Made by a program: the position numbers and the translations under genes. A stretch of DNA of 21,510 nucleotides, taken from positions 1 to 21,510 of IMG/VR virus record IMGVR_UViG_3300017737_000103. The stretch is one strand, 5' to 3'. Below are positions 5,866 to 12,170 of this stretch, piece by piece. Under the pieces are notes generated by a model. The model made no database searches. It saw only the letters and a list, made by a program, of their open reading frames with translations, and was not told the DNA's origin. The stretch is from a virus. How positions within the stretch are numbered: position 1 is the stretch's first letter; every line of letters begins with the position of its first letter.

Positions 5866-5998
5866 AATGTTCCTTAATTAAGTTATATAAATTTGTTCCA
5901 ATAAAAAACCATATCATTAAGCCTATAGGTATAAGCACTAACGCAGTACCTAACGCTAAAAGGTTTATAATGATCTCATATAAGTTTATAATAATCAT
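5849..5998 (-). CDS. Small hydrophobic membrane protein, 49 residues
   Basis: The ATG overlaps the stop of the PP-loop gene (ATGA), and the TAG lies inside the start of the next gene. Residues 9-35 are almost entirely hydrophobic (Ile/Leu/Ala/Val/Gly with a Pro and a Trp), giving one membrane helix, followed by a short polar tail ending in Lys-Asn. Translational coupling on both sides supports a real gene. No family is recognised. It could be a host-membrane or exclusion-type peptide, but nothing in the sequence proves that. Confidence 0.55.
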   Translation of the reverse strand: MIIINLYEIIINLLALGTALVLIPIGLMIWFFIGTNLYNLIKEHYGQKN

Positions 5999-6771
5999 AA
6001 GCCACAAAACCCCTCTTCACACATAAATAATTCTTCTTGATCCTCTTGTAAATATACCTCATCCATTGGTTTAAGACTTCGATGTAAAAACAATTTATCA
6101 TCTTCACCTTTCCTGCTTTTATCTCTTATCGCCTTATCTACTGCTACTATCTTTTCCCATTGCTCTGGAAAGTTTTCTTTAATCTCCCTAAACTGTCTAT
6201 TGTGTTGATATGGGCAAAACACACAACTAGACTTAGGCACATTGTGAAAACTTCGCTCCTCTAAAAACGCTTTACAATCACTTCTACTTATTTGTTCATC
6301 AATAAGTGGGTATTTATATTCTACATTGTACATCTGTGAAATTTTTGCTCTTTCTATCTCATCTGTGCTTATTCCTAACCATAACTCTGTAGGTTTCATT
6401 CTCTGTCTGTACTTTAATCCATGTAAATCTCTAATCTTACGCTTTACTGTGTTTATTTTGTATTCACCTGTGCATTGCCTTTGAACCATTCCACCACTTT
6501 CTGAAAAAGCAGGTATAGTAACAAATGGCTTACCATCACTATTAACACCATCTATAACATCTTGATATATATCTGCCTCTTCTATTAGTATTTCAATGCC
6601 ATTATTATATTTTTTCCATTCTAATAAATACTTAATTAAATCTTCTGTTGTTGGTTTTTCACTCTTTAGATCAGCGTAAATTGCATAATCTGCTCTTTCT
6701 ATATACCCTAAAGAACTCATTAAATAAAGTGCAGTTGATTGCACACCCATACCTAAAGATATTATTTTCAT
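5995..6771 (-). CDS. PP-loop ATPase of the PAPS reductase / adenine nucleotide alpha hydrolase superfamily
   Basis: A protein of 258 residues from ATG 6771 (260 from an alternative ATG at 6777, used for numbering). The N-terminus has the PP-loop S-L-G-M-G-V-Q-S-T at residues 7-15, which binds ATP pyrophosphate. Conserved-looking Cys occur at 102 (QRQCTGEYKI), 168, 185 and 188 (SSCVFCPYQ), with C253 and C258 near the end. PP-loop enzymes adenylate a substrate, often for sulfur or amide transfer (CysH, DndC, TtcA/TtuA and QueC relatives). The pattern C102 + C185-x-x-C188 recalls three-Cys iron-sulfur sites of TtcA/TtuA-type thiolases, but that is inference. The 6771 start gives a 4-base overlap with the upstream zinc-ribbon gene. 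Substrate unknown: DNA, tRNA or a nucleotide are possible. Confidence 0.85.
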   Translation of the reverse strand: MKIISLGMGVQSTALYLMSSLGYIERADYAIYADLKSEKPTTEDLIKYLLEWKKYNNGIEILIEEADIYQDVIDGVNSDGKPFVTIPAFSESGGMVQRQCTGEYKINTVKRKIRDLHGLKYRQRMKPTELWLGISTDEIERAKISQMYNVEYKYPLIDEQISRSDCKAFLEERSFHNVPKSSCVFCPYQHNRQFREIKENFPEQWEKIVAVDKAIRDKSRKGEDDKLFLHRSLKPMDEVYLQEDQEELFMCEEGFCGL

Positions 6772-7019
6772 GAGCATTTAAAGCAGGTTTCTTTAGGTTT
6801 ACCATAAGAAGGAAAGTCATCATAATGATGTATTCTTTTTGACCAATATCCCCCCATTCTTTTACAATCTTCCCAAACCTTTTTACATTTAGTACAAAAC
6901 TTTAAATTTTTGCTATTTTCTTTTGTATAATTTTTATCATTTCTTAATTTTCTATTATTAGTTTCATAGTAATTTAATACCCATTGTACTGAATTATCTT
7001 TACTATTGTCTGAACTCAT
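6768..7019 (-). CDS. Zinc-ribbon-like small protein, 83 residues
   Basis: The protein has a charged, Asn/Lys-rich N-terminal half and a C-terminal half with C-T-K-C at residues 42-45, a further Cys at 52, and C-F-K-C at 79-82. Two C-x-x-C knuckles about 35 residues apart suggest a zinc ribbon, probably binding nucleic acid or serving as a scaffold. The ATG overlaps the end of the replisome organizer gene (ATGA) and has GGAAGGT upstream. It is followed immediately by the PP-loop enzyme, so the two may work together; this is inferred only from coupling. Confidence 0.7.
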   Translation of the reverse strand: MSSDNSKDNSVQWVLNYYETNNRKLRNDKNYTKENSKNLKFCTKCKKVWEDCKRMGGYWSKRIHHYDDFPSYGKPKETCFKCS

Positions 7020-7870
7020 AAACTACCTTCCATTATTTGATTAAGTGTTTCATTGGTGTAATCCTTGCCATTGTACTTTTTTGGCTTTTCTGGTACAAAT
7101 TCAACCCCACAGCATACACTACTAAAGTTTAGTTCCTTATGTTCTAAAAACATTGTATCACCACACTTAGAACAATACCCCCTGTACATACCAGATTGCA
7201 TTACTCTAAATTGTTTCTTTTGTTTAAAAGGTTTCTCAGATGCTTTAATTATATCATCGTTCCATCGTTCACCATTAAGCCAAACATTTAAAGCAGGTGT
7301 GTACTGAGCATCTGTTTCTTTCCAATTATTAAGAACTTGGTTTTTAAAAGCTGTATAGATTGTTTCATGGTCTTTCTTTTTAACTGCTAGTATATACTTC
7401 TGATAAGATTTCTTTTTATTAACCTTCTTAGGTACTAATGACCAAAGTTTTTCAAACTCTTGAACATATATATTATTATTAATCTTCTTAGTCTTATTGT
7501 TTAGTGTTCGTTTGTTGTTCAGTTGTTGTTCACTTTGCTGTTCATCTAGTTGGTAGTCTGACCACCTAAGTATTGATATTAAGCGACATCGAGGATTTGT
7601 CTGTTGTTCAATTTGTTGTTCGATTTCAAAGGTTTTTAAAATTCGTTGTATTTTACTCTCATTGATTTTTAATTCTTTAGATATGATTTTTCTACCTGTA
7701 ATAAACTGCCCTGCTTTTAGGGTTAGTCTCTCCCCTTCATATATTGTATCATGGTCTGAATGGGTAGCGTTTAATAGTAACCACATCCAGACAGCAAAAT
7801 GATCTGTGTCTTTCATTACAATGGGATTATCCAAAGTCTTACGATGCAGTTTTATCCAACCATTACTCAT
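7016..7870 (-). CDS. Replisome organizer / replication initiator with winged HTH
   Basis: A 284-residue protein with the layout of phage replication initiators. Residues 1-85 form a winged-helix domain starting with G-W-I-K-L-H-R-K and including an L-K-A-G-Q-F-I-T-G-R segment, as in DnaD-like/replisome organizer proteins. Residues 84-133 are a Gln/Asn-rich linker. Residues 138-207 hold a domain ending in T-P-A-L-N-V-W-L-N-G-E-R-W, common at the C-terminus of such proteins. A final zinc-ribbon-like part has C233-x-x-C236 and C253-C254. It likely binds the origin and recruits host helicase. The linker DNA contains iteron-like repeats next to an AT-rich tract (7462-7622), as in lambda O. SSB and nuclease genes lie just upstream. 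Confidence 0.85.
   Translation of the reverse strand: MSNGWIKLHRKTLDNPIVMKDTDHFAVWMWLLLNATHSDHDTIYEGERLTLKAGQFITGRKIISKELKINESKIQRILKTFEIEQQIEQQTNPRCRLISILRWSDYQLDEQQSEQQLNNKRTLNNKTKKINNNIYVQEFEKLWSLVPKKVNKKKSYQKYILAVKKKDHETIYTAFKNQVLNNWKETDAQYTPALNVWLNGERWNDDIIKASEKPFKQKKQFRVMQSGMYRGYCSKCGDTMFLEHKELNFSSVCCGVEFVPEKPKKYNGKDYTNETLNQIMEGSL
7462..7622. other. Candidate replication origin: iterons plus AT-rich stretch inside the initiator gene
   Basis: On the minus strand an 11-base unit of the form (T/C)GAACAACAAA occurs six times: 7612-7622, 7600-7610, 7533-7544 (12 bases), 7522-7532, 7511-7521 and the diverged 7500-7510. Within a cluster the copies lie 11 or 12 bases apart, about one helical turn, and the two clusters are separated by 55 bases, five turns. 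An AT-rich tract (7462-7488) follows the last unit. Iterons plus an unwinding element within the initiator gene is the lambda O arrangement. The same DNA encodes Gln/Asn-rich protein, so codon repetition is the rival explanation. Confidence 0.5.
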
Positions 7871-8304
7871 TATATACTCATATTTTGACCATAGATATTA
7901 AAATAATGCTTTTGAATAAGGTAGGCAATTTTACTAGCACAGTCACCCTTACCTGTAAATTGTACAGATTTAAAGTTTTCTTTATTAATCATATCTCTAA
8001 TCTGTTCTGGTGTTATAAATATAAATTCTTCTTCATCTAAGTGAAATACCCACCAATCTGCTTTAGTAGTGCTTAATGCTGATAGTTTACCATTCATCTG
8101 AACTTCTACAACAACATTTCCTGTGTATTTGCTCATAAAGTCTTTCTTAACTTCCACAGATGTATCTATTTCGGGTATAAATATATCAAATTCTTTAAAA
8201 TATCCATCTTTTATATAAGCACTAGGGTATTTGTTTTTAATGCGATTTAAAACGATTTTTTCAGATTCTTTACCTACCACTAAAGACTCTTGAAAGCTAC
8301 TCAT
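7870..8304 (-). CDS. PD-(D/E)XK-like nuclease
   Basis: A 144-residue protein. The N-terminus has a helix G-K-E-S-E-K-I (Glu14), followed by F-D-I-F-I-P (Asp40) and V-E-V-K-K-D (Glu51, Lys53). This E...D...E-x-K order is the signature of PD-(D/E)XK nucleases, including phage Holliday junction resolvase-like and recombination nucleases. The C-terminal part has Gln-Met-Asn-Gly-Lys and K-A-D-W-W-V-F-H segments, the latter typical of restriction/resolvase-like folds with a core strand after the active site. It sits between the NinG-like gene and the replisome organizer, so a role in recombination or replication intermediates is likely. Exact substrate is unknown. It overlaps the downstream gene by one base (TAATG). 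Confidence 0.75.
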   Translation of the reverse strand: MSSFQESLVVGKESEKIVLNRIKNKYPSAYIKDGYFKEFDIFIPEIDTSVEVKKDFMSKYTGNVVVEVQMNGKLSALSTTKADWWVFHLDEEEFIFITPEQIRDMINKENFKSVQFTGKGDCASKIAYLIQKHYFNIYGQNMSI

Positions 8305-10530: not shown

Positions 10531-10967
10531 CTTACTTACCCCCTTTATATAGATTGTAAACATAAAATGATTGTGCTTTCCATTCTCTACAATCCCAAGT
10601 ATCAAGAACCACCCCATCCTTTAAACAAGTCCAATGCCTACTGCATCTAATAAGATAATTACCAATTAATGGAAAATTGCCAATCTTGTATTTTTTATTA
10701 CCACTACTCTTTAATGGACTCTGTCTTTTTATACCTATATCATCTAAGTATTTTTCAATGACTACATCATCATTAGGCATCCTCCACATCTTAGATGCAA
10801 GATTAAATAAATCGTTTCTAATGTGTTTATAATCCTCATCTAAAAAATGTGCTATGGCTCTTATAGCACAATCAATAGTCCTATCTTTTTTATATTTAAT
10901 AGTGATATAATTTTCTCTACCACCATGTGATTGTTTAAATTTGTTTTTCATCCTACTTACCCCCTTT
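10526..10967 (-). repeat. Duplicated gene-border sequence (stop, RBS, start)
   Basis: The 21-base stretches 10526-10546 and 10947-10967 are identical except for one base. Each encodes the end of one protein (both end in Gly-Gly-Lys), the stop codon, the Gly-rich ribosome binding site and the ATG plus AA of the next gene. The genes they join differ. Such repeated gene borders can arise by tandem duplication or serve as short homologies for gene shuffling. Confidence 0.6.
10532..10951 (-). CDS. Papain-like (C39/NlpC-like) cysteine protease-fold protein
   Basis: A 139-residue protein. It has T-I-D-C-A-I-R-A-I-A (Cys28 at a helix start, typical of papain-like nucleophiles), then C-S-R-H-W (His106) and D-G-V-V-L-D-T-W-D-C (Asp117 and Asp120). 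The order Cys ... His ... Asp with a D-G-x-x-x-D-T-W-D strand is the pattern of small phage papain-fold proteins. It could be a peptidase or transglutaminase-like enzyme, perhaps acting on host proteins early in infection. The target is unknown. ATG 10951 has AAGGGGG upstream. It sits second in the early unit behind the regulated leader. Confidence 0.65.
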   Translation of the reverse strand: MKNKFKQSHGGRENYITIKYKKDRTIDCAIRAIAHFLDEDYKHIRNDLFNLASKMWRMPNDDVVIEKYLDDIGIKRQSPLKSSGNKKYKIGNFPLIGNYLIRCSRHWTCLKDGVVLDTWDCREWKAQSFYVYNLYKGGK

Positions 10968-11177
10968 TATAGCTTTTCCACAAATATCAAAACTATAACC
11001 TAACTGTTCTAGTCTTAGTTTAAAATTTGGGTTTGGGTTTTTAGCAATATTGTTAGGCATCTCATAAGTATAATCATTGGCTCTGCAATCTGGATGATTA
11101 TTTACAAAACTAACTAACTCGTTAAAAGTACCCCTGTGAACATTATCAGTAGATAAACTTATTATTGTATGTATCAT
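10953..11177 (-). CDS. Hypothetical protein, 74 residues, first gene of the early unit
   Basis: A longer frame reaches back to 11351, but that would translate through the terminator, the promoter and the stem-loop leader. I therefore choose the ATG at 11177, giving 74 residues. The product has a beta-like N-terminus (I-H-T-I-I-S-L-S-T), a central N-H-P-D-C-R segment, an Asn/Pro-rich stretch and an end with L-G-Y-S-F-D-I. One copy of the GATGAGACT motif sits just upstream of the ATG, overlapping the ribosome binding region, which has no strong Shine-Dalgarno. Function unknown; as the first early gene it could be a regulator or host-takeover factor. Starts at 11289 or in between are possible. 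Confidence 0.55.
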   Translation of the reverse strand: MIHTIISLSTDNVHRGTFNELVSFVNNHPDCRANDYTYEMPNNIAKNPNPNFKLRLEQLGYSFDICGKAIKGGK

Positions 11178-11180
11178 TTT

Positions 11181-11289
11181 AGTCTCATCTTTCTTTGTAG
11201 GCACAAGGGGAGTATTAGTAAGCGATGAGACTGTACGAAAAGTACTCCCCATATCTGTGCCAAGTTTTATATTATTAATTAGTCTCATC
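11181..11289. repeat. Three copies of the 9-base motif GATGAGACT, operator candidates
   Basis: AGTCTCATC reads at 11181-11189 and 11281-11289 (same orientation, starts exactly 100 bases apart), and its complement GATGAGACT reads at 11224-11232. One copy lies in the spacer between the -35 and -10 boxes of the early promoter, one in the loop of the leader stem-loop, and one just before the ATG at 11177. This placement suggests a regulator acting on DNA, or on RNA as well. Confidence 0.5.
11200..11261 (-). promoter_or_regulatory. Stem-loop leader RNA of the early transcript
   Basis: In minus-strand RNA the outer stem GGCAC (11261-11257) pairs with GUGCC (11204-11200), and an inner 8-bp stem GGGGAGUA (11250-11243) pairs with UACUCCCC (11214-11207). 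A 28-base loop holds one copy of the GATGAGACT motif. The predicted transcription start from the promoter at 11297-11269 falls at or within two bases of the base of this stem, so the structure would sit at the 5' end of the mRNA. It is not followed by a U tract, so it is not a terminator. Roles in stability, ribosome access or protein binding are inference. Confidence 0.5.
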
Positions 11290-11297
11290 AATGACAA
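11269..11297 (-). promoter_or_regulatory. Early promoter candidate, TTGTCA-17-TAATAT
   Basis: The -35 TTGTCA (11297-11292) matches five of six consensus bases and the -10 TAATAT (11274-11269) matches four of six, with the ideal 17-base spacer. The surroundings are AT-rich. The 9-base motif GATGAGACT lies within the spacer, where a bound protein would block polymerase. The promoter begins about 38 bases beyond the U tract of the late terminator and would start the early/replication unit at about 11262-11260. Confidence 0.6.
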
Positions 11298-11334
11298 GAT
11301 ACCTAAACCATTAATTAAGTGCAAGTAAATAAAT

Positions 11335-11390
11335 AAAAAAAAATAACCCACAATGTAGCGATAGACAGGAATCGTTACATCATGGGTTAT
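11335..11390 (-). terminator. Strong intrinsic terminator at the end of the late unit
   Basis: In minus-strand RNA, AUAACCCA (11390-11383) pairs with UGGGUUAU (11350-11343). Two U-G wobbles and a further 9-base stem (11380-11372 with 11361-11353, one A-C mismatch) extend it to almost 19 pairs around a 10-base loop. Eight U residues follow directly. The wobble pairs favour folding of minus-strand RNA over plus-strand RNA. It lies 16 bases after the last tail gene's stop and just before the early promoter. Confidence 0.88.
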
Positions 11391-11405
11391 CGGTAGCGTT
11401 ATATT

Positions 11406-12170
11406 TTAACTGAGTTGTTCTCTTAATTTTAAAGAGGCACTAAATCGTTCAAATGCTACTTCTGTAAATTTTATAGGTGAGTCTAAGCGTACATAATGAT
11501 AAGTAGAATCATCATAGTACACGAATTTTTTAAAGTTTGTTACATCCTGCTCAAAGCTGACCAGATTGTTTTTAAATGTTTGTGATATATTACTAAAGTT
11601 TAATTGGAATGTGGTTTTTGGTTCGTGTCTCTTGTTAGCGTATTCTACCCCACCAAGTGATGTATTAAGGTCTGTGCCAAAGATTTCCTGTGTAGCTATA
11701 CCTATATCTGGCTCGTTTTCAAAAACTAGAGGCTTCCCAATTATCATCTCAGTAAGACCATCAAAAGTATCGTGCTGACTTTTTAAGAACCAATATCTAC
11801 CACTTTTAACTGTATCAACATTACCTGTTAAATCCCAACCTGGAGCAGGAGATGAAAAATTTACAAAAGCATTAGTAGACATATCTGTGCTAGAACTAGC
11901 ATGATATTGCCAATAAAGATTGTCTTCTTCTGTTGCAGACGACCTATTGTGTGTAAGAGCATTTGATATATCTACAGATACACCAAAATCAATCCTTATC
12001 ACATCATTTGCACCAAAAGATGTTATTGCATCAGAAATAGATTGATCATTAATTCTATGTACATTTGTAATCGCACTTGATGATGCTGAAAATGTTGTAC
12101 CAGATACAGTACCTGCTGTAATTGTCGCTTCTGTTAAACCTACTGAATCATAATATATTGTTTTAGCCAT
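11406..12170 (-). CDS. Tail protein, last gene of the late unit (distal tail or receptor-binding candidate)
   Basis: A 254-residue, Ser/Thr/Asn-rich, beta-type protein. Residues about 40-130 look like a jelly-roll or carbohydrate-binding module (D-V-I-R-I-D-F-G-V-S-V, then an Y-W-Q-Y-H-A strand and later G-R-Y-W-F-L). The C-terminal 75 residues form a second part with T-T-F-Q-L-N-F-S and alternating aromatic strands. It follows the tail hub gene with an 8-base overlap and is the last gene before the terminator, a place often held by receptor-binding or distal tail proteins. No specific family is recognised. A host-recognition role is inference. Confidence 0.7.
   Translation of the reverse strand: MAKTIYYDSVGLTEATITAGTVSGTTFSASSSAITNVHRINDQSISDAITSFGANDVIRIDFGVSVDISNALTHNRSSATEEDNLYWQYHASSSTDMSTNAFVNFSSPAPGWDLTGNVDTVKSGRYWFLKSQHDTFDGLTEMIIGKPLVFENEPDIGIATQEIFGTDLNTSLGGVEYANKRHEPKTTFQLNFSNISQTFKNNLVSFEQDVTNFKKFVYYDDSTYHYVRLDSPIKFTEVAFERFSASLKLREQLS

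Follow-up and report, generated by a model that had tools for sequence, protein, structure and literature searches.

A covarying antisense leader before the first early gene in a marine-type phage clade: a candidate RNA switch

The early leader and its locus

The DNA under study (the window) is a stretch of 21,510 nucleotides from the virus record IMGVR_UViG_3300017737_000103, and the leader described here lies on its minus strand between a tail gene and the first early gene (Table 1). On this strand a terminator-like hairpin is followed by the promoter, copy 1 of a 9-base motif, a hairpin carrying the inverted copy 2, copy 3, and the ATG of the gene. A hairpin matching the terminator-like one is found at the equivalent site in L008, L012, L016, L018 and other related loci. 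The sequence TTCCTGTCTA (or AATCCTGTCTA), at 11362-11371 (-) in the window, is kept just 3' of the tail-gene stop in several leader types, where it lies within the loop of the terminator-like hairpin or ahead of the hairpin. Elsewhere in the early region, a phosphoadenosine-phosphosulfate reductase-like protein (5995-6777, -) and a DnaD-like helicase loader (7016-7870, -) are encoded.

Table 1. Features of the early leader and its surroundings in the window
Feature	Position	Strand	Basis or remark
Terminator-like hairpin with T-run	11335-11388	-	3' of tail gene 11406-12170; putative terminator
Early promoter: -35 TTGCAC (11324-11319), 17-nt spacer, -10 TATCTT (11301-11296)	11296-11324	-	Consensus and conserved position
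Copy 1 (seqA-like), GATGAGACT, predicted transcript 5' end	11281-11289	-	Near-leaderless AUG (11288-11286) inside
AU-rich linker from copy 1 to the stem	11262-11280	-	Sequence; AU-rich across all types
P1 stem, 5' arm (GGCACA...GGGGAGTA)	11243-11261	-	Fold
Copy 2 (seqB-like), P1 loop, AGTCTCATC, antisense to copies 1 and 3	11224-11232	-	Compensatory changes preserve pairing
P1 stem, 3' arm (TACTCCCC...TGTGCC)	11200-11214	-	Fold
Copy 3 (seqC-like), ribosome-binding site of the first early gene	11181-11189	-	Sequence, covariation
Leader frame of 37 codons, starting at the copy-1 AUG and in phase with the gene start	11178-11288	-	Putatively translated
First early gene, 74 aa, MIHTIISLST...	10953-11177	-	ORF; relatives in L004 and L005 (76% identity)

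The sequence-only reading had described three copies of one motif around a leader stem-loop, and the window indeed holds GATGAGACT exactly three times, twice on the minus strand (copies 1 and 3) and once on the plus strand (11224-11232, copy 2). The start-to-start distance of 100 bases between the two copies of the same orientation was confirmed, as was the stem-loop at 11200-11261, which folds better than shuffled sequences in its context (z = -3.0). When the window was dinucleotide-shuffled 150 times, no 9-mer triple of this kind appeared before an ATG; with 8-mers, a triple was seen in 5 of the 150 shuffles and a triple together with a stem in one. Matches to GATGAGACT with at most one mismatch numbered 8 in the window against 5.3 expected, which is not unusual per se, and what is unusual about the motif is the exactness and the clustering of its copies, not the number of near-matches. 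The 8-mer triple is unspecific by itself (37 chance matches in the reversed sequence), and the stem, the spacing and the ATG were also required. A pattern scan with ACCGAGGG..CCCTCGGT returned mainly unrelated hairpins and was abandoned. The two direct copies also raised the possibility of a target-site duplication or a small mobile element, which was dropped because the copies change along with the loop in relatives.

The promoter TTGTCA-17-TAATAT that had been proposed for this leader is literally present; however, it occurs only in the window and its close relative L016 and is thus not conserved. The conserved promoter sits further upstream, and therefore copy 1 is the predicted 5' end of the transcript rather than, as had been suggested, part of a promoter spacer. 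Comparison of the leaders establishes a fixed distance between this promoter and the copy-1 start codon, since in 20 of 23 leaders exactly 7 nt separate the end of the best -10 box from the copy-1 ATG. This distance predicts that the mRNA starts at the AUG or no more than 1-2 nt from it, and transcription should start near the copy-1 AUG, given that the promoter is assigned by consensus and conservation.

Phages do not share one gene after the leader: it differs even between L008 and L009, whose leaders are nearly identical. The space from the leader ATG to a conserved junction, AAGGGGGTAAGTAGGATG (window 10953-10970, -), is occupied by unrelated genes; at this junction a C-terminal GGK, the stop, and the Shine-Dalgarno sequence and ATG of the next gene overlap. 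This junction is located at the 3' end of the first gene in the window and in L008, L009, L012-L019, L197, L199, L316, L323 and L339. As judged from these comparisons, the first early gene is an exchangeable cassette. The first-gene products tested, including that of the 74-aa gene of the window, gave no meaningful Pfam or PHROG match. The product of the second gene of the window (10532-10951) has a C-terminal KGGK as well.

Layout and covariation in related leaders

Loci were collected through the tail protein encoded upstream of the promoter, which gave 23 and later 54 loci, through a second tail protein, which gave 28, and through two motif patterns, which gave further loci; leaders were then detected with a script seeking a copy, an antisense copy, a copy and an ATG. 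A scan of bacterial genomes contained no relatives of the tail protein, and the annotated phage collection contained no relative of either the 74-aa gene or the tail protein. The layout of two copies flanking a hairpin was found in 30 leaders from a marine-type phage clade, with L014 and L202 left out as duplicates of leaders already counted. Motif and stem sequences vary among these leaders, which were assigned to type A (the window, L016, L017), type B (L008, L009, L011, L018, L019), type C (L012, L013, L015), type D (L004, L005, L154, L185), type E (L020), type F (L197-L201, L275, L296, L306, L323, L339) and a sister of type F (L261, L274, L281, L316). The two loci with relatives of the first early gene, L004 and L005, have the same arrangement built on a different motif: copy 1 is AGATGATAACC, the loop carries GGTTATCATCTCC, and copy 3 is GGAGATGATA just 5' of the ATG. 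Among more distant relatives, L028, L029 and L030 carry a tRNA-like sequence directly 3' of the tail gene (about 6790-6875), a possible attachment site.

When 16 leaders were compared position by position, 143 of the 144 cells showed a standard pair between copies 1 and 2, maintained through compensatory changes, with three pair types found at each of positions 6 and 9. Between copies 3 and 2, pairing is complete from position 2 to position 7 but less so at positions 8-9, which are often unpaired. In L017, copies 2 and 3 have changed jointly (A to G, T to C) and the ATG of copy 1 is retained. The mean duplex energy at the 5' end was -13.1 kcal/mol for cognate and -7.2 kcal/mol for non-cognate combinations, and the corresponding values at the ribosome-binding site were -13.0 and -9.2 kcal/mol. 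None of 20,000 permutations was as good as the cognate pairing, nor was any of 100,000 with one or few representatives per type, and these figures, like the product for the open frames given below, overstate independence because the leader types share ancestry. The closing stem forms in every type with a different sequence each time. A metabolite riboswitch was considered and dropped, since neither the stem nor the loop sequence is conserved across types.

Comparison thus establishes both the layout and a covarying complementarity, and the structured regulatory 5' end proposed for the early transcript is supported by the fact that both are kept across relatives. The three copies appear to be functionally linked because they change together, so the idea that they are connected elements stands, whereas the motif sequence itself is not conserved. 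On this comparison, the conserved feature is the antisense relation of the loop to the other two copies, not the motif sequence. The sequence-only reading had suggested one regulator that could act at promoter and leader alike, and the three exact copies, two of them in one orientation 100 bases apart, speak for such a DNA-binding protein. However, relatives carry differing motifs, copy 2 occurs without exception inverted and within a hairpin loop, and the promoter proposed to contain the first copy is not conserved, copy 1 lying at the 5' end instead; with the antisense relation conserved in place of the motif, we find this explanation scarcely credible.

From the copy-1 ATG, the reading frame contains no stop in any of the 30 leaders, whereas each of the other frames contains 1 to 6 stops. 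The main ATG follows the copy-1 ATG at 102, 105, 108, 111 or 114 nt in 26 of the 30, where the leader frame is in frame with the gene. In the four leaders of type D, the frame closes with TAATG, which lies at the start of the gene, and since the leader frame stops there, the gene ATG is a real start in L004 and L005. Based on shuffled sequences, the probability of such open frames across six types is about 2e-6 if the types are independent, which they are not entirely. Because the frame is open in all 30 leaders, the leader appears to be translated, and we consider this probable from the sequences compared. Constraint on the amino acids is weak, with 24 synonymous and 49 non-synonymous changes and a dN/dS-like ratio of about 0.6.

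The regulatory reading had been set against a conserved coding frame running through 11178-11289. Such a frame is open throughout the leaders, yet amino-acid conservation is weak and the complementarity of the motif copies is kept, and therefore the leader is predicted to be both translated and an RNA element. The same open frame, in frame with the gene in most leaders, and the dN/dS-like ratio would also fit a view in which the region simply encodes the N-terminal part of a longer early-gene product (111 aa in the window) and the RNA features are incidental. But copies 1 and 3 place the repeated motif in different reading frames, the type D frame stops in TAATG, the amino acids are weakly constrained, and the copies covary while the downstream gene varies between phages. 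This longer-gene view is already disfavoured by the covariation, and we consider it very unlikely.

A second layout was found in 12 representatives (L158, L186, L188, L189, L191, L194, L195, L206, L207, L010, L151 and L193), in which the hairpin follows the tail gene and precedes the early promoter, so that it is predicted not to be part of the early mRNA. A stretch of 7 to 15 nt in its loop matches the mRNA 5' end, and in most representatives the loop of an inner hairpin carries CUCC facing the Shine-Dalgarno sequence; this latter complementarity is weak (-10.9 for cognate against -9.4 for non-cognate combinations among the representatives). An alignment of nine representatives contains 17 pairs, 10 of which show two-sided change. 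In L151, a T-run directly follows the hairpin, which may be the terminator of the tail operon. Since the hairpin of the second layout lies outside the predicted early mRNA, action in trans or on a read-through RNA seems likelier than a purely internal switch.

A predicted antisense switch on early translation

We suggest, as a reasonably probable reading of these sequences, that the leader acts as an antisense-RNA switch which controls the first early operon by blocking both of its start sites. Transcription would start at copy 1, so that the mRNA would begin at its AUG or within 1-2 nt of it, and ribosomes would either initiate at this AUG and translate the leader on into the gene or initiate at the ribosome-binding site that copy 3 provides. 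The loop of the hairpin between copies 1 and 3 would display a sequence antisense to both translation starts, and we infer that it pairs with them in the cell, either as RNA released from one transcript that acts in trans on others, as with the P4 CI RNA, or within a single transcript. Pairing that covers copies 1 and 3 would prevent ribosome loading and turn translation off, and possibly then also transcription of the early operon. Such repression may serve to limit early expression in time, or to exclude a superinfecting phage with the same motif.

The pairing may also be purely intramolecular, copy 2 pairing either with copy 1, which leaves the gene on, or with copy 3, which closes the ribosome-binding site, so that decay of the 5' end or ribosome loading at copy 1 would set expression without the involvement of a trans-acting RNA. 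A single transcript carries all three elements in a span of about 115 nt, the duplex of copies 1 and 2 is at least as long as that of copies 2 and 3, and a ribosome at the copy-1 AUG would be expected to free copy 2. However, pairing with P1 intact requires a pseudoknot, and complementarity to the mRNA 5' end is still kept in the second layout, where the hairpin is outside the predicted early mRNA; we therefore regard an exclusively internal switch as unlikely. It is highly improbable, in our view, that copy 1 pairs with the loop in order to mask the transcript 5' end and make the early mRNA more stable. Copy 1, at the predicted 5' end, does have the best-conserved pairing, but protection of this kind leaves unexplained both copy 3 at the ribosome-binding site and the arrangement in which the hairpin precedes the promoter.

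Extending the antisense switch, the leader might constitute a self-contained RNA module for immunity or timing, in which a near-leaderless translated leader carries a loop silencing both starts and an exchangeable seed tag of 9 to 12 nt sets exclusion groups, placed ahead of unrelated early genes that are swapped, in phages mostly without a recognisable integrase. We put this forward tentatively, as a possibility that is itself rather doubtful. The varying seeds predict mutual silencing of the early gene among phages that share a seed, and none among phages whose seeds differ.

RNA-only control of phage early genes is represented by a few enterobacterial elements (P4, P1/P7 and Gifsy-1). To our knowledge, the combination of a near-leaderless AUG with an antisense hairpin covering it has not been described. 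From its sequence, the leader looks like a compact RNA off-switch resembling the immunity RNAs of P4 and P1, in phages for which we found no such switch described. The compact form, the strong covariation and the two layouts, in an uncultured clade unseen by Rfam models, would imply that current models underestimate how common such switches are.

Comparison with known phage antisense RNAs

It had been stated that no matching system was known; however, the phage P4 CI RNA and the P1/P7 c4 RNA are close in layout. The P4 CI RNA pairs with seqA and seqC (PMC4825925), and the c4 RNA blocks a ribosome-binding site and causes P1/P7 heteroimmunity through seed differences (PMC12197685). As a control, the same search applied to P4 recovered its complementary segments in the order seqA, CI RNA/seqB, seqC and kil ATG, and the Rfam C4 model scored the P4 CI RNA at 74.9 bits. 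The window likewise has an antisense segment flanked by an upstream and a downstream complementary site on the same predicted transcript, before the first early gene. The C4 model (RF01695) gave no match at 10900-11500 of the window at E<=5, nor in the second-layout loci L151, L158, L010, L186, L189 and L191 at permissive thresholds. Among the other families, isrK gave no match in the window, and known Rfam leader and riboswitch families gave no match there at the gathering threshold, the permissive matches lying below the family cut-offs. Because the C4 model does not match, we liken the leader to the P4 and c4 RNAs in its predicted working and do not file it as a member of that family.

A tyrosine integrase was detected in one of 31 contigs (L017), an HTH_3 match, weak and below the cut-off, in one of 21 contigs (again L017), and a serine recombinase in none of the 21, all of these contigs being possibly incomplete. 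With L017 the only searched contig to show an integrase or HTH repressor, immunity of the lysogenic P4 type is not indicated for most of the clade. In L017, the integrase and the weak HTH_3 match both lie between the tail gene and the leader (about 6766-8120).

IsrK of Gifsy-1 is comparable in being a prophage RNA that acts on a longer transcript of its own, in which an upstream frame is coupled to the gene that follows (PMC4825925), but it activates translation and has its own terminator, whereas the relation in the window predicts repression. The sar RNA of P22 and the OOP RNA of lambda are phage antisense RNAs that block translation or destabilise phage mRNA (PMC12197685); unlike these opposite-strand transcripts, the antisense element of the window consists of a short copy that is inverted but carried by the same strand.

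The c4 RNA of P1/P7 is closer, as its loops are antisense to the region around a ribosome-binding site, and the second layout likewise has two antisense sites in one hairpin RNA. It differs in that its Rfam family does not match here at E up to 5, the target here is the first early operon rather than an antirepressor gene, and most leader-bearing contigs show no integrase. As in P4, the early operon of the window opens with a leader that includes an antisense hairpin, which is complementary to one upstream and one downstream site, the latter just 5' of the ATG of the first gene. In contrast to P4, the module of the window measures only about 115 nt in all, forms an open frame, lacks a match to the C4 covariance model, and has copy 1 with its AUG at the predicted 5' end of the transcript. 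P4 acts by transcription termination in the lysogen; the window leader, known from its sequence, is predicted to close translation starts and may then shut off transcription as well.
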